Assembly: GCA_913054375.1 (NCBI GenBank)
Contig: CAJXIQ010000007.1
Location: 1 to 32,606, forward strand
From: an uncultured Bacteroidota bacterium
GTDB lineage: Bacteria > Bacteroidota > Bacteroidia > NS11-12g > UBA9320
Direction of reading: 5' to 3'
Length of the DNA stretch: 32,606 nucleotides
In this document: positions 2,796-30,889 of the stretch, piece after piece
How positions within the stretch are numbered: the first letter of the stretch is position 1
How the letters are laid out: every line of letters starts with the position of its first letter
Program-made: the position numbers and the translations under genes
Notes under the pieces: generated by a model
Seen by the model: the letters and a program-made list of their open reading frames with translations, nothing else
Database searches by the model: none
Told to the model about the DNA's origin: nothing

Positions 2796-4655
2796 ATGTC
2801 TGACAATAAGAAAATCAAGATAGTACTAGCAGGGAACCCAAATTGTGGTAAATCCTCACTCTTCAATAGTCTTACGGGCCTAAAGCAAAAAATTACCAAT
2901 GTGCCAGGGACTACCATAGAAAATAAGGTAGGTAGATTTGCTATTGAAGATAGTTTTATAGACCTAATAGATACGCCAGGAACCTATTCCTTCAATCCAA
3001 AAAGTTTAGATGAGAAAGAAGCGGTGAAGGTGTTTTTTGAGGACCCGCTTCCAGATGCGATTTTATACGTTGCGGACGCAGCTAATCTGAAACGAAACTT
3101 GTTCTACTTTAGTCAGTTAGCGCAGCATGGCATTCCTATGGTTTTGGCTCTTACGATGCTAGATATTGCTGATTTTAAGGGTTTTGAGATTGATATAGAT
3201 CGGCTGGAAAAGGAACTAGGTATTCGCATATATAAAGTAAATGCACGAACAGGAGATGGCATCGCAGAGTTGAAAAAAGCGCTAGGTCAAGACCAGTTTG
3301 CTCCGCACTATGCTTTTGGTAGTAAGGAGGACCATACACATGAAAGTCATTTTGTTTCCATTAATAAACTACTCAATAAGACCACTACATTAAAATCTAA
3401 AAGAGAGTTGGTCTCCAATAAAATAGATGCATGGGCTACACATCCTATTTTGGGATATCTTATGTTTTTGGTGGTACTGTTGGTTATCTTTCAGAGCGTA
3501 TTTAGCTTAGCGGCCTATCCTATGGACTGGATAGAAAACGGATTCTCCCTACTCAGTGAGTGGCTTTCCGCTGTGCTTCCTGACGGATGGCTTAAAAAAT
3601 TGGTCATAAATGGTCTAGTAGCTGGCGTAGCAGGTGTTGTTGTATTTGTACCTCAGATTGCAATTCTGTTTTTCTTTATGGGACTGCTAGAGGATACAGG
3701 ATATATGGCTCGTGTTAGTTTTATTATGGATAAGATGTTACGGGGGCTGGGTCTTAGTGGTAAGTCTGTGGTTCCTCTACTGAGTGGTGCTGCTTGCGCT
3801 ATACCTGCAATAATGAGTACGCGAAACATCGAAAACTGGAAAGATAGATTGATCACGATAATGGTGACCCCGCTGATGAGTTGCTCAGCGAGACTACCCG
3901 TTTACACTTTACTTATTAGTATGGCTATACCTAGTGACCAATATGTAGGGATAGTCAGTGTACAGGCGCTTCTAATGCTAGGCATGTATGTTTTGGGTAC
4001 TGCTGCTGCTCTTGTAGCCGCTGTAGTTTTTAAATGGATTATACGACACGATGTGCCGTCATATTTTATAATGGAGTTGCCCGTTTACCATGTTCCACGG
4101 TGGGGCAATATTTGGATTAATATGTGGCAAAAATCGCGCAGTTTTGTTACAGAAGCGGGTAAAGTTATACTTGTAGTTTCTGTAGTGCTATGGTTTCTAG
4201 CAAGCTACGGCCCTAAGACTGATCAAACGTTCAGTATACAAGAATCTGAAAAACTGGTAGAAAGCTACGCCGGTCACTTCGGAAAAACACTAGAGCCTGC
4301 CATACTGCCTATTGGATTCAATTGGAAAATAGGGATTTCACTGATCACTTCATTTGCTGCTAGGGAAGTATTTGTAGGGACAATGAGTACGATATACAGC
4401 GTAGGAGATGAAGATAATTTTGAGCAAATACGGGATAAAATGAGGAAAGACACATTGGCTAACGGTAAGCCCGTTTATTCCCTAGGGGTAGTACTTTCTC
4501 TTATGGTATTTTATGCATTTGCTATGCAGTGTATGGGTACGTTAGCTGTTGTTTACAAGGAAACCAAATCTTGGAAATGGCCGGTTATACAATTTGTTTA
4601 CATGACATCATTAGCCTATTTAGGCAGTTGGATTACCTTCAATTTATTTGGCTAA
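2796..4655 (+). CDS. feoB: Ferrous iron transport protein B (FeoB)
   Basis: 619 aa; G1 GNPNCGKSSLFNSLTG, G3 DTPG, polytopic gate domain with SFIMDKMLRGLGLSGKSVVPLLSGAACAIPAIMSTR. Confidence 0.95.
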   Translation: MSDNKKIKIVLAGNPNCGKSSLFNSLTGLKQKITNVPGTTIENKVGRFAIEDSFIDLIDTPGTYSFNPKSLDEKEAVKVFFEDPLPDAILYVADAANLKRNLFYFSQLAQHGIPMVLALTMLDIADFKGFEIDIDRLEKELGIRIYKVNARTGDGIAELKKALGQDQFAPHYAFGSKEDHTHESHFVSINKLLNKTTTLKSKRELVSNKIDAWATHPILGYLMFLVVLLVIFQSVFSLAAYPMDWIENGFSLLSEWLSAVLPDGWLKKLVINGLVAGVAGVVVFVPQIAILFFFMGLLEDTGYMARVSFIMDKMLRGLGLSGKSVVPLLSGAACAIPAIMSTRNIENWKDRLITIMVTPLMSCSARLPVYTLLISMAIPSDQYVGIVSVQALLMLGMYVLGTAAALVAAVVFKWIIRHDVPSYFIMELPVYHVPRWGNIWINMWQKSRSFVTEAGKVILVVSVVLWFLASYGPKTDQTFSIQESEKLVESYAGHFGKTLEPAILPIGFNWKIGISLITSFAAREVFVGTMSTIYSVGDEDNFEQIRDKMRKDTLANGKPVYSLGVVLSLMVFYAFAMQCMGTLAVVYKETKSWKWPVIQFVYMTSLAYLGSWITFNLFG

Positions 4656-7600
4656 TAATGGGGATCACCAGTTTTACTTCTGTTCCTTTGGTTCCGTCTT
4701 TGTTCTGAATATCATTGATTATAACATCGTAGTCTCCTTTCCCTTCACTGAGTATCTTAAGACGTTCTTGTGTAAGGTTCATTCCAGTAGAGTTATGTGT
4801 AGAGCTCCTTCTGGCGTTCATAATACGTGCTGCTTCTCGTCCTATCCCATTGTCAATTATAGTGCAGAGTAGGTGCTGTTTCTCCTTAGATATTAGAATG
4901 TCTAATTTGCGATTATCTTGTTTGGGTAGTAGTCCGTGTATGATGCTGTTTTCGATGTACGGTTGTATCAACATGGTAGGCATATTGGCCATTTCTAAGT
5001 CCTCTATGTTCCGAGTCTTAATGGTATAGTCTAGGTTATTATCCATCCTCATTTTTTCCATCTCCAGGTAGAGGTCTAATCCTGCTATTTCTGCAGCTAT
5101 ACTAATGTATTTGAGCCTGCTATTTTGGAGTATTTTTCTCATGAGACTGGCAAATTTGCTTAAGTAGGTATATGCTTCTCGTGGTTCTTTTTTTAAAATG
5201 AAATACTGTATACTATTGAGTGAATTAAAGATAAAATGTGGATTCATTTGACTCCGCAGTGCTGTTAGCTCAGAGTCAACAAGTTGAAGTTTATAGGAGC
5301 GTTTAATCTCACGTGTTCTGTATCTAAATAGCGCTGCGATTAGTCCAGCAAGGATCCCTGTGGTGAGTAGTATAAACCACCAGCGTTGCCATATTGGTGG
5401 CATTACCTGAATTTTTAACGGATCTGACATACCAGACCAGTTGCCAAATTCATCATTGGCTTCTACAATAAACGTATAGCTTCCTGGAGCTAGAATTGGA
5501 TATACCGCTGTGTTACTTGCTCTAGCATCTACCCAATCTTCGTCTAGTCCTTGTAGCTTGTAGCGGTAGGCTACACCACTAGGATTTGCATAGTATAGTG
5601 AGATAAAGTCAATCTCCAATCTACTTTTCAGGAAGCCAAGAGTGATACTGCTTTCTGTCTTTTTGGTAAAGGTACCCCGCAGATCTGTTAGCATAACATT
5701 GCGAGTAGAAGTATCAAAAAGGATCTGATCTGGATTAAAAATATTAAGTCCGTTCACACCGCCAAAGTAGAATGTACCTGTGCTACTTTTCTGAAAAGCC
5801 CCTTCGTTAAATTCTGTACTCTGCAGATAATGCACGGGTTTAAAGTTTGTATAGGTGTTTTTGTATAGGTTATAATTGACAAGTCCGTCGTTAGTAGAAA
5901 GCCATACAGAACCTATGGTATCATAAAGCACACCGTAGACAATGTTATTTATTAGTCCATCTACCTCAGATATACTACTAAATGTCTTTGTATGTAGGTC
6001 ATATATATTAAGGCCGCCGCCATACGTTCCTATAAGCAGGGTGTCATTATTTACCCACTCAAGACACATAAGATTATTGTTGCTAATGCTGCTGGAGTCC
6101 TCTGCATCGTGTTTTAAAATTTCAAAACGTTTCGTGTTAAGATCAAACAATTGTAAACCGCCTCTAAAACTGGCTATTACTAGTTTGTCCTCCGTTGGAT
6201 GCTCTATTATTTCGTATATGGAATTGTTTTTGTGTAATGAATCAGCTTGATAATGCTTAAAATGGTTGGTGTTCGAATCCTTTCCAGAGAGGCCTACGTT
6301 GGTGCCGAGCCAAATTGTTCCATACTTGTCTTCGAATATGGATCTGATGGTATTATTATTTAGGTTTCCTTGCTGCACACTGGCTACCTGCTTATTATAA
6401 CCAGTTTTGGGATCAAAAATGAATAGTCCTTCAGTTGGAGTACCTATCCAATAGGTACCTTTTGTATCTTGCAAGATGCTTCGTACAGACTCAGATTCTG
6501 AGTTTCCGGCTCCTAGTTTTGGATATATGCGCTCTATGTTATTATTGGCATCGAGTTTGACAAGACCGGAGCCGAGTGTACCCAACCAAATACTTGCGTT
6601 TTGATCTTCGTAGGTAAAGTATACATTGTTGCCATAGGTTATACCGTCCAGGTCGAAATATTGGAGCAAATCAAACTTACTTAATTGTGGGGCATACTTA
6701 CTCACCCCTGATATGGTACCTAACCACACTATATTGTCTCGGTCTACAAAGAGGTGATTCACTTTATCACTCACCAATGAGTATGGCCTTAACTGGTTGG
6801 AGCGGTATAATCGTACGGTTAGGTCTTCTTCTAAAAGCATAAGGCCACCATCCGATCCTACCCATGCTCTCTTCCCGTCCTGGATTATATTATTTATCTG
6901 CTTCACATACCGCTTTCTTGGAGGCAATTCTATTGGGTGTAAGCGAGATTCATCTGTAAGAAGAAAAAGCCCATTTTTGCTCCCTATAAGGATGCTTTGA
7001 TTAAATGCGCACAGTGCATTGAATGCATATTTTTCATTGGTTTCGTAGATTATCTTGGCTTTATGTAAATTGGTAGCGATGAGCGCATTTTTGGTCAGTA
7101 GGTAGAGGCTGTCTTTGTGCACCATCATCGCCTCTATTTCAGTATCAGCCAATTGGGCTATCTGTACCTTTCGTATCTTTTTTTCGCTATAAAAATATTC
7201 CCACAAACCACCGCCATCAGTATCTATGATAAGTCTGTCTTGGTATAGAAGAAGTTGTTCTATGGGGTAATCGTAGTTTGCATCTTGGGTATTTAGGGCT
7301 ATGTGAGAAAATACATAGCTATCGGTATTAAGAATATCGATGGTTCCTAAATTGGTTCCTATATAGATAGTGTTACCCTTGGTGGCCAAGGTGGTGATGT
7401 AGCTATCTGATAACGAATTCCTACTACTTTCTCTGTGCTTAAAAATTTTGAAGGACTTACCATCGTATCGATGTAAACCTTCTGCTGTTGCGATCCATAT
7501 ATAGCCTTTATGGTCTTGTGTAAATGCGGTAATGGTACCCATAGATAGGCCATCGTCTACAGTGATATTCTGGAAACGAATATTATTGGACTGGTTTTGA

Positions 7601-27321: not shown

Positions 27322-27444
27322 CAATGAGTTTATAACTGCAAATAAAGTACGGTATTGTATGTACTCTCAAAAAATCTATGCACAGGTGTGAATCCATTTG
27401 GCTAAGATTGTTTATAATTGAATCGGAATAAATAAAAAAATAGA

Positions 27445-27912
27445 ATGATGAAAAGATTTACTTTAGCTGCACTAGTGTTAAGTGTAGTGACAATTGCGAG
27501 TGCAGTAATGATAAACGGACTAACTGCAGATGACATAAAAGGCACGTATTGGAATGCTGAAAAAACGGCACACATACGCATGTACAAGGCTAAGAATGGC
27601 AAATACTATGGCAAAATAGAATATTTGGTTGAGCCAAATGACGCGAGTGGAAATCCCAAAAAGGATCCGGAAAATTCAAACGAAGAGCTTAGGGATAGAG
27701 ATCGTCTTGGTATGGTCATAGCTAAAGGTTTTACATGGGATGCTGACGAAAATGAGTGGAATGATGGAACCATCTATAATCCGACAGATGGTAAAACGTA
27801 TGATGGATATATGTACTTTGAAGGAGACGATAAGAAAAATTTGTATCTAAGAGGCTTTGTTCTGGGTATGCCGTTCTTAGGCAAAACCAGTGAATGGACT
27901 AGGATAAAATAA
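27445..27912 (+). CDS. DUF2147 domain-containing secreted protein
   Basis: 155 aa; signal peptide; IKGTYWNAEKTAHIRMYKAKNGKYYGKIEYL...LGMVIAKGFTWDADENEWNDGTIYNPTDGKTYDGYM. Confidence 0.85.
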   Translation: MMKRFTLAALVLSVVTIASAVMINGLTADDIKGTYWNAEKTAHIRMYKAKNGKYYGKIEYLVEPNDASGNPKKDPENSNEELRDRDRLGMVIAKGFTWDADENEWNDGTIYNPTDGKTYDGYMYFEGDDKKNLYLRGFVLGMPFLGKTSEWTRIK

Positions 27913-27954
27913 GTGCAGTGAATAATACTTTCTTTTGTGGGTATTATCTGGCAA

Positions 27955-28737
27955 CTAGCGCACCGCAGCAACAAATTCAATAAAATGCTTCACTTCAGTG
28001 AGGCATTTTTTTTGGTCTTCTAGCATACTGAGGTGACCCACATTGGTCAAGTTACCTATTTGTGCTGCTTGGCATTTTGCTGCTTGTCCATATATTTCCT
28101 TCGCTTGGTAGTAGGGGTCTTCTTCTCCACGCAATAGTAAGACGGGCTTATCAAATGTGTCTAGGACACTGCTGCGGTCCTTCCTATCTCTCATAGCGTG
28201 CAATCCAGCTATAACAGATGCCGTAGGTGTAGCATTCACCATAGCCGTCAAATTTTCTCTTAGTCGTGCCCTATGGGAAGAAGCTACGAGGCCTGACATG
28301 AAGATGCGAAAGAACTCGGAGGTACCATACGTATTAATGAAATTTATGGACTTGAGCCTATTCTCTTTTTTAATGCTGTTATCTGCATAGGTGGTAGAGT
28401 GGATAAATGCAGCAGCAGCTAAGCTGCTGGGGTATTGGTGTATGTATTCTGCGACAATATAACCGCCAAGCGAATGACCTAAAAGTATAGGTTGTTCCAC
28501 GTTTTCGTAGTCTAGTAGATTTTTAATCTGTTTGACAACTTCAGGGATAGTCGTAAAAGGGATAGATGTGCTAGCGCCAAAACCAGGAAGGTCTATTGCT
28601 ATGCAGGTGTGCGTTTTGGCAAACGCGGTTATGAGAGGCTCCCAAATCCTGGAGTCTTCACAAAAACCATGTAAAAAACAAAGGTGGGGACCTGTCCCCA
28701 CCTTTGTATATGTTATTTGGTTAAAACGCGAAAGCAA
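27955..28737 (-). CDS. Alpha/beta fold hydrolase
   Basis: GTGPHLCFLHGFCEDSRIW, ILLGHSLGGYIVAEY (GHSLGG nucleophile elbow), LLRGEEDPY, VGHLSMLE; probable TTG start 7 nt after the ppiD-like stop. Confidence 0.92.
   Translation of the reverse strand: MLSRFNQITYTKVGTGPHLCFLHGFCEDSRIWEPLITAFAKTHTCIAIDLPGFGASTSIPFTTIPEVVKQIKNLLDYENVEQPILLGHSLGGYIVAEYIHQYPSSLAAAAFIHSTTYADNSIKKENRLKSINFINTYGTSEFFRIFMSGLVASSHRARLRENLTAMVNATPTASVIAGLHAMRDRKDRSSVLDTFDKPVLLLRGEEDPYYQAKEIYGQAAKCQAAQIGNLTNVGHLSMLEDQKKCLTEVKHFIEFVAAVR
27982..28013 (+). terminator. Intrinsic terminator for the plus-strand DUF2147 gene, embedded in the 3' coding end of the convergent hydrolase
   Basis: Plus strand AAAATGCTTCAC-TTCA-GTGAGGCATTTTTTTT; 10-12 bp stem with one G.U pair, tetraloop, T8 tract. 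Confidence 0.8.
28673..28707 (-). terminator. Intrinsic-terminator-like hairpin downstream of the ppiD-like gene, embedded in codons ~11-20 of the hydrolase
   Basis: Minus strand ACAAAGGTGGGGA-CAGG-TCCCCACCTTTGT followed by TTTTT; perfect 13-bp stem, tetraloop. Confidence 0.7.
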
Positions 28738-28744
28738 TAGCGTC

Positions 28745-30889
28745 CTAGTTGTAGAATTTGTAACGTTGATCTTTTACCTCGGCCTTCTTGATAAGTGCGG
28801 CTTGTACTTCGTTTCCTCCTTGTGTATTCTGTGCAGACGTTCGTTGCATCTGATCCTTGAGTGAATCAAGGCTCTCGGCGTCGTATTCATTTGCGTTGTT
28901 TACAAACACCACTGCTACACCGGTTGTTCCTTCTATTGCATTGGAGTGTTTTCCTACTGGAGTACCCAGTATACTTCCTATGATCTTGTAATCTTGGCCT
29001 ATATTAGGAAGGCTGCCTGTATTAAAAGAAGCAGCAGGTACTGGTGTTATCACAGCGTTCAAAGCGTTACTCAATTCATCTGCTGTTTCGGCTGTTGCCA
29101 AAGCTGCATTCATTCTAGGCAGTAGGATTTCTGCTTTCTTTTGGTTCTTGATGATAAACTCTATTTCACCACGTAGGTCTTCGGCATTTGGTATACCTTC
29201 TTCTCTTATCTTAGAAACCCTAGCCACGACAAGACTTCCGTCTACATCTATTACACCAGAAACACTACCTTCTTCGGTAGAGGAATTAAACAACCATTCT
29301 GCTATTTTATCAGATTCGGTTATGTTCGGGATAGTTCTATTTTCTTCTGTTATCTTGTTCGCTACACGCTTACCAAGTCCCATACTTTCTGCAACTTCTT
29401 CAAAACTCTGCTCTCCATTCACTTTACCGAGAAATTCGCCAGCTTTTTTGTAGAATGCACCGTCTGTTGCCGTGCTTGGAAATATACGTTGGTCTACAAT
29501 TGCCACTTTTACAGTTTTGCGACTTACAGCAGATGTAGTTTTGGCTAAGTGAACACCTCTATTACTTCTAACGATTATGTAGTTCCCCTGTCTTGAGGTC
29601 ATAAGGCGGTTTACAAGTCTTTTGGGGTATTTTCCCGATTTTTCCCTTATCCAGCCCATATCTCCACCAGTGGCTCTGGTAGCATCAAAGTTTCTTGATG
29701 ATGCTTGAGCAGAAAAAGTAGTTGTCCCTTTTTTTATCTTAGCTAACACTTCTCTAGCCTCCGTCTCCGCATCAGCAGTATCTGTTCCGGCTACTGAAAA
29801 GAGAATATGACTCCCTCTAACAGAACGCAGAGAGTCTGAACCAAAATCCAATATTTTAACTACACTGTACACTCCGTTTTGTTCGAACGGACCTACAACT
29901 TTACCCGCTTCTTCATCAAAAATTCTATTTTCAACTTCGGGGGAGAATGAACCTCTTACTTGAAAAGCTGGGTTGAAAGGAGTTTCGCTACCCATGATGC
30001 TAACAAAGGCAGAATCGTTCTTTGTATTAGAAAACTTCTCTATTGTTTCTCCTGCCCATTCAATCATACCAACCGAGTCTTTCGTAGAAGGAACGACATC
30101 CAATTTGATGTATTCTATATCTCTGCTGGCTTGTTGTACGTATTTGCTTTTATGTTGTTTGGCATACGCTAGTATTTCGGCATTAGAAACTGAAATATTG
30201 GAATCTGCTATTTGGGCATAAGGTAAGCTCACAATTGACGCATTTACGGTTTGTTCAGTCTCTTTACCTCTAATGCGAGCCTCTAAGTCAGTGGTGTAAT
30301 ACGAACTTGAAACCAAGTTGCGGTACTTCTCAGCTATTAAACCTGTGGTAAATTGCTCTTGGAACGTGGTCCAACTCTGTCTTGCTTGTGGATTTTCGTT
30401 TATATCCTGCTTTAGAAACTGAATAAGTCGCTGCTTGTCAAATTGGTTACTCTCAGGATCTCTGAAAGATTGCTGTATTTGTGGGTGAGTGTTTGCGCCT
30501 ACGGTTAGATCTTCAAGTTCTGCCGGGCTTACAGATATACCAAGTTGCTCGTATTGAGGTTGTATGGTCTTGGCTTCTATTAGCGAGTTCCACGCTTGAG
30601 TTCTGTATTGCTCAGCTATAGCCTCGTCTATGGTGATGCCGGGGTTGTTTTGAACCAATTGTTGCTTCATTCCCTCGTAGGTGCTGTTAAACTCTTCGTA
30701 CGAAACAGGATTCCCGTTTATACTACCTACTGAATTTTCGGTTGATCCAAAAATACTGCTTCCGCTACTTACTAAATCTGTGAGCACAAAAGCGAGCATA
30801 GCTGCACCTATTACCAAGAATAGGCAACCTGTCTGGTTTTGGATTTTTTGTAGGACACTTGGTTCTTCTTTGTTGTATTTATCTGACAT
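28745..30889 (-). CDS. SurA N-terminal/PpiD-like peptidylprolyl isomerase, membrane-anchored
   Basis: N-terminal TM anchor, SurA_N-like region, parvulin domain (RGSHILFSVAGTDTADAETEAREVLAKIKKGTTTFSAQA...GGDMGWIREKSGKYPKRLV). Confidence 0.9.
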   Translation of the reverse strand: MSDKYNKEEPSVLQKIQNQTGCLFLVIGAAMLAFVLTDLVSSGSSIFGSTENSVGSINGNPVSYEEFNSTYEGMKQQLVQNNPGITIDEAIAEQYRTQAWNSLIEAKTIQPQYEQLGISVSPAELEDLTVGANTHPQIQQSFRDPESNQFDKQRLIQFLKQDINENPQARQSWTTFQEQFTTGLIAEKYRNLVSSSYYTTDLEARIRGKETEQTVNASIVSLPYAQIADSNISVSNAEILAYAKQHKSKYVQQASRDIEYIKLDVVPSTKDSVGMIEWAGETIEKFSNTKNDSAFVSIMGSETPFNPAFQVRGSFSPEVENRIFDEEAGKVVGPFEQNGVYSVVKILDFGSDSLRSVRGSHILFSVAGTDTADAETEAREVLAKIKKGTTTFSAQASSRNFDATRATGGDMGWIREKSGKYPKRLVNRLMTSRQGNYIIVRSNRGVHLAKTTSAVSRKTVKVAIVDQRIFPSTATDGAFYKKAGEFLGKVNGEQSFEEVAESMGLGKRVANKITEENRTIPNITESDKIAEWLFNSSTEEGSVSGVIDVDGSLVVARVSKIREEGIPNAEDLRGEIEFIIKNQKKAEILLPRMNAALATAETADELSNALNAVITPVPAASFNTGSLPNIGQDYKIIGSILGTPVGKHSNAIEGTTGVAVVFVNNANEYDAESLDSLKDQMQRTSAQNTQGGNEVQAALIKKAEVKDQRYKFYN

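Follow-up and report, generated by a model that had tools for sequence, protein, structure and literature searches.

The close packing of a ppiD-like gene and an alpha/beta hydrolase gene on the minus strand of the window, the whole 32,606-nucleotide stretch of uncultured Bacteroidota DNA that was analysed, raises the question of whether a terminator-like hairpin within the first codons of the hydrolase can end transcription of the upstream gene while encoding part of the downstream enzyme. The features concerned are the following.

28745..30889, minus strand: ppiD-like gene for a periplasmic chaperone/peptidyl-prolyl isomerase, 714 aa (open reading frame; Pfam SurA_N_2, Rotamase, Rotamase_2)
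28745..28747, minus strand: ppiD stop codon TAG, with a 37 nt spacer to the stem
27955..28737, minus strand: alpha/beta hydrolase gene, 260 aa (open reading frame; Abhydrolase_1, E 7.5e-25)
28735..28737, minus strand: hydrolase start codon (TTG), which follows the ppiD stop by 7 nt and precedes the stem by 30 nt
28678..28707, minus strand: putative in-frame terminator hairpin with a 13-bp stem and CAGG loop (arms 28707-28695 and 28690-28678)
28672..28677, minus strand: T-tract TTTTTA, directly 3′ of the stem and falling in the Phe and Leu codons of FLHG
27982..28009, plus strand: another terminator-like hairpin and T-tract, antisense to the final hydrolase codons (terminator-like site scan)
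27445..27912, plus strand: convergent DUF2147 gene (domain search)

A preliminary description of this DNA had reported the 13-bp stem, tetraloop and T-tract about 38 nt after the ppiD stop, together with the TTG start and the identities of both genes; sequence, coordinates and start are as it gave them, the spacer is one nucleotide shorter, and the identities are borne out by the SurA_N/rotamase and Abhydrolase_1 domains. The C-terminal DQRYKFYN* of PpiD is kept in relatives. In the hydrolase, Ser89, Asp207 and His235 are invariant among 30 homologues and the body of the gene shows a pN/pS of about 0.46; because of this purifying selection and the intact Ser-Asp-His set, the enzyme must be expressed. 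Its start lies at the same position in the 16 loci of the genus that were examined, with TTG in 15, GTG in one and ATG in none. A true start 3′ of the hairpin, at the GTG codon within the stem, was considered and rejected: the residues that precede it fit the Y-x-x-x-G-x-G pattern seen across the family, a pN/pS of 0.55 marks codons 1-10 as coding sequence, and in one group of relatives (type III, below) the hairpin is located past the HG motif. Separately, a weak hairpin (AGGACGC...GCGUUUU) is predicted to fold around the TTG start (28722-28746, minus strand); similar folds are seen in relatives G016 and G008 and are not clear in others.

On the minus strand the stem-loop reads ACAAAGGTGGGGA-CAGG-TCCCCACCTTTGT; it spans hydrolase codons 11-20, or 11-22 when the T-tract is included, in the frame T-K-V-G-T-G-P-H-L-C-F-L-H-G. 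It has the structure of an intrinsic terminator, a G+C-rich hairpin (13 bp) followed by a U-rich tract (T5 then A), and is the top terminator-like site of the 12.6 kb scanned; the tail on its plus-strand side, ATATGTTATT, is far poorer than the sense-side T-tract. The 101-nt stretch containing it has a minimum free energy of -32.9 kcal/mol (z -5.8 against dinucleotide shuffles), and terminator-like hairpins in relatives range from -13 to -21 kcal/mol. When the local 25 codons were recoded synonymously 20,000 times with genus codon usage, the stability of the native fold was never matched (observed -26.8; recoded mean -10.6, sd 3.0). Given the protein, the ten stem and T-tract codons have a joint probability of about 3e-6, and they include rare ones (AAG 21%, GTG 22%, GGG 11% and CCC 17% of their amino acids). 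The hairpin is single-copy in the source genome; a mobile or repeated REP-like palindrome was excluded by the presence of one copy per genome, and in an Rfam scan of 27400-29000 no family reached its gathering score. The hairpin is real and not a product of chance.

Comparison with relatives shows what is conserved in it. A search for the hydrolase covered 58 related genomes, and the loci were then oriented; 19 genomes from three genera carry the same stem and T-tract in the same frame (type I), namely all 17 genus members in which the gene was recovered at high similarity plus G023 and G027 from other genera, while the incomplete assemblies G002 and G005 gave weak, paralogue-level hydrolase matches only. 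The 19 share the in-frame codons AAG GTG GGG nnn GGt CCy CAC CTT TGT TTT TTA, and identity among the hydrolases goes down to 40%. The exact pattern AAGGTGGGGNNNGGNCCYCACCTTTGTTTTTT occurs in 19/108 genomes of the order, always within the hydrolase gene and nowhere else in the 108, even with 3 mismatches (control pattern, 0). At degenerate sites of invariant residues a single codon is used throughout at 8/10 in the stem and T-tract and at 2/39 elsewhere (Fisher p 4e-6); parsimony finds 3 synonymous changes in the stem and T-tract versus about 61 expected (0/100,000 resamplings). Of the two exceptions, CCC to CCT keeps pairing (G-U in the sense RNA) and the other touches the loop-closing pair. 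Synonymous divergence (pS) is 0.036-0.058 in the stem and about 0.75-0.83 in the hydrolase body; the loop codon is free (pN 0.48, pS 0.59), the flanking codons vary freely with synonymous change next to the hairpin saturated, and directly after the T-tract, where TGT TTT TTA stands in 19/19 sequences, CAC/CAT and GGT/GGA/GGG again vary freely. The residues KVGxGPHLCFL are invariant within the hairpin clade and variable outside it. Since the stem and T-tract are frozen while the loop and neighbouring codons are free, the RNA stem and T-tract are themselves under selection, in addition to the protein; the type I stem is too frozen for any compensatory change to appear among its sequences. The earlier suggestion that this DNA is a terminator-like element and true coding sequence at once is upheld by the synonymous freeze and the coding constraint on either side, and the search that it had proposed, for synonymous sites in relatives that disrupt the stem, returned the opposite, stem codons that are nearly frozen. 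Many of the source assemblies are metagenomic; assembly error is excluded because many independent assemblies agree. One assembly, G009, holds a divergent copy of the ppiD-hydrolase locus on each of two contigs (G009:C30 and G009:C31, loci L011 and L190) and may mix two species or contain a duplication.

Outside the type I clade the arrangement recurs in other forms. Four species of the sister genus g4 (G032, G034, G058, G059) carry a different in-CDS hairpin, AAGGGG...CCCCTT with an interior of 30-40 nt (type II), that ends at the same I-F-L codons with the same T-tract as type I; this hairpin is absent from G021 and G029 of the same genus. Ten species of family f12, in the same class, have a third hairpin inside the hydrolase soon after HG, in the codons E-N-N-T-C-F-N-E-Q-V (type III), and in all ten ppiD lies about 0-10 nt upstream; 98% of cells in its arms are paired, with compensatory changes at two pairs, against at most 57% in slid controls, and the T-tract is interrupted in three of the species (G117, G230, G289). 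Type I loci are packed similarly, with 0-12 nt from ppiD stop to hydrolase start. Where the gap is wider, an ordinary intergenic terminator separates the two genes (G020, G028, G031, G033, G060, G024; G341, G464, G480, L053, L069), and in the wide-gap groups g3 and g7 the ATG that starts the hydrolase lies just a few codons ahead of HG. In-CDS terminators are found in 33 genomes and intergenic ones in 11, none having both (raw Fisher p 2e-8, a value that ignores relatedness). The pair is kept with neither terminator recognisable in G021, G029 and G026, so the element is not indispensable. Start codons are TTG or GTG in type I, GTG in type II and ATG in type III; the g4 members that lack the hairpin also use TTG.

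The hairpin and T-tract are probably the intrinsic terminator of ppiD, dual-coded in the first 22 codons of the hydrolase, which would then be made by read-through only; this reading is drawn from sequence conservation and layout. RNA polymerase leaving ppiD would mostly stop at the hairpin and T-tract, and hydrolase would come solely from transcripts that pass it, a form of built-in attenuation. The terminator lies 3′ of the start codon in the 5′ coding sequence, with coding constraint on both sides; because the start codon sits upstream of it, only read-through transcripts encode the hydrolase, and since the type III terminator lies past the HG motif, no later start codon could yield a complete enzyme. 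Attenuation of the hydrolase, as proposed in the preliminary description, would follow from this layout, in which every full-length hydrolase mRNA crosses the terminator. We infer that the element sets a low hydrolase-to-ppiD ratio, both the extent of read-through and the purpose of the ratio being part of that inference; no sensing element for an attenuation signal was identified at the locus, and plain partial termination would suffice. With a near-zero gap between the genes, the terminator would have been retained by being written into the downstream frame. As a side effect, terminated ppiD transcripts would carry no in-frame stop for the hydrolase ORF; the weak TTG/GTG start suggests a limit on non-stop translation, and this is a suggestion only because hairpin-less g4 members use TTG and type III uses ATG. 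An E. coli terminator is suppressed by a terminating ribosome within roughly 27-30 nt of the stop codon and acts at full strength beyond (PMC4824070); the distance from the ppiD stop to the stem core AAGG, 31-45 nt in all type I and type II relatives with ppiD in view, is just outside this ribosome shadow.

A translation-dependent attenuator, which would be an extra layer on the dual-coded terminator and not its opposite, is possible but doubtful. Ribosomes that finish ppiD would reinitiate at the TTG. Where they follow RNA polymerase closely, they would mask the 5′ arm and the hydrolase would be transcribed; otherwise transcription would stop. The short gaps in types I and III favour coupling, the weak TTG/GTG start is conserved, and at pyrL/pyrBI ribosomes are known to relieve a terminator (PMC5021804, PMC4824070); however, for a terminator 30 bp past an AUG in E. 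coli, translation cut termination by only about 10% (PMC4824070), and the distances here are 30 nt from start to stem and 37 nt from stop to stem. Furthermore, the locus showed neither a leader ORF nor an alternative antiterminator fold, and the layout is found equally where the hydrolase starts with ATG (type III) and where the terminator is intergenic. It is improbable that the hairpin is instead an RNA stability or processing element, which protects the ppiD mRNA 3′ end or creates it by processing and not by termination; the stem is stable by folding, and a stable 3′ hairpin would also shield the ppiD mRNA from exonucleases, but the T-tract codons are frozen like the stem (TTT TTA, 19/19) and a T-tract also trails the unrelated type II and intergenic hairpins, whereas a mere stability hairpin needs none. 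A DNA palindrome bound by a protein, as an operator or chromosome-organising site, is very improbable: the core is a near-perfect inverted repeat, but it is present in a single copy per genome with a conserved asymmetric T-tract, the change CCC to CCT retains RNA pairing while breaking palindrome symmetry, and unrelated hairpins stand in for it in relatives. Codon usage that merely coincides with a conserved protein motif, with no RNA function, is scarcely credible even though the encoded residues fall at one (G-x-G ahead of FLHG), as the synonymous constraint is confined to the stem and T-tract and contradicts it, the frozen sites include rare codons, adjacent change is saturated and the hairpin recurs in three forms.

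Further terminator-like hairpins within coding sequence bear on how general a dual-coded terminator may be. At the other end of the hydrolase, the antisense hairpin at 27982-28009 lies about 70 nt beyond the convergent DUF2147 gene and is probably its terminator; seven genus members (including G016, G010, G012, G001, G004 and G018) have a hairpin at this site whose arms differ, and others lack it. Both ends of the hydrolase gene would thereby hold the terminator of an adjacent gene. In the near-complete relative G008 (JAGYJG010000001.1, 'Bacteroidia bacterium isolate M30B35'), a survey over 2.4 Mb found 166 perfect-stem terminators versus 40 in a reversed-sequence control; 136/166 are intergenic, only 4 were classed as sense and no more than 150 nt from a called start, and 9 more, including the one in rimM, are in open frames that precede a called start. 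The survey undercounts, the simple gene caller having put the hydrolase start too late. A genome-wide habit of in-CDS terminators was rejected on the rarity of 5′-CDS cases in this survey. The rimM case is located as follows.

G008:C1:623243-623272 (locus L223), and in the source genome G000:C135 near 4240-4737 (locus L225): rimM in-CDS hairpin

Directly downstream of rpsP, a 13-bp hairpin and T-tract, AAAATCGTCTCGC-TAAA-GCGAGACGATTTT-GTTTTT, lies inside the 5′ rimM codons in 13 genus members including the source genome, with a variant in G023; 96% of cells pair, with no formal covariation among 10 aligned sequences. Cells need very different amounts of ribosomal protein S16 and of the assembly factor RimM, which fits a ratio-setting role for the rpsP-rimM hairpin. 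In G008 an 11-bp hairpin and T-tract (MCLQPYINQAAVLFTAAFLMSC) is also present at G008:C1:1876695-1876721, where a lipoprotein-like ORF is predicted to encode its signal peptide; it may be a third in-CDS case or reflect a wrongly called start. We lean, with modest confidence, towards dual-coded terminators as a recurrent device of compact Bacteroidia at chosen tight pairs (ppiD-hydrolase, rpsP-rimM), which would fix an expression ratio and would have arisen independently up to three times at one pair.

Predicted intrinsic terminators within coding sequence are easily written off as false positives, and such elements would escape annotation that looks for terminators in intergenic DNA alone. If termination at the ppiD-hydrolase hairpin is true, selection constrains the codons, and probably the residues, of a protein to retain a transcription signal; the locus would then offer a natural system for studying bacterial expression of a gene whose start precedes its own terminator, and the cost that non-stop mRNAs impose. 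Such elements may have been described earlier; the literature searched was open-access.

In the tightly packed E. coli frd/ampC pair, too, the terminator of the upstream unit doubles as the attenuator of the downstream gene; however, the hairpin lies in the ampC leader and not in ampC codons, whereas that of ppiD-hydrolase is dual-coded within the reading frame and kept from species to species. The pyrBI/pyrL attenuator (PMC5021804, PMC4824070) likewise has its intrinsic terminator within translated RNA, where a ribosome may suppress it; the translated part there is pyrL, a dedicated leader peptide that includes pause sites, while here it is a full enzyme ORF and no sensing element was found. 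Partial terminators in ABC transporter operons of Clostridia (PMC9045158) share the principle that incomplete termination gives more of the first product; their stem-loops are intergenic, in contrast to a hairpin within coding sequence. Intrinsic terminators internal to E. coli ORFs (narY and rsxC, PMC5021804; 3′-end maps, PMC7815308) share the placement of the signal within codons; in the portions of these sources consulted, narY and rsxC are single cases studied when translation falters, with no deep synonymous conservation shown. Unlike the narY and rsxC terminators as treated there, the 5′-CDS terminator of ppiD-hydrolase would serve the upstream gene, and it exists in three unrelated forms.
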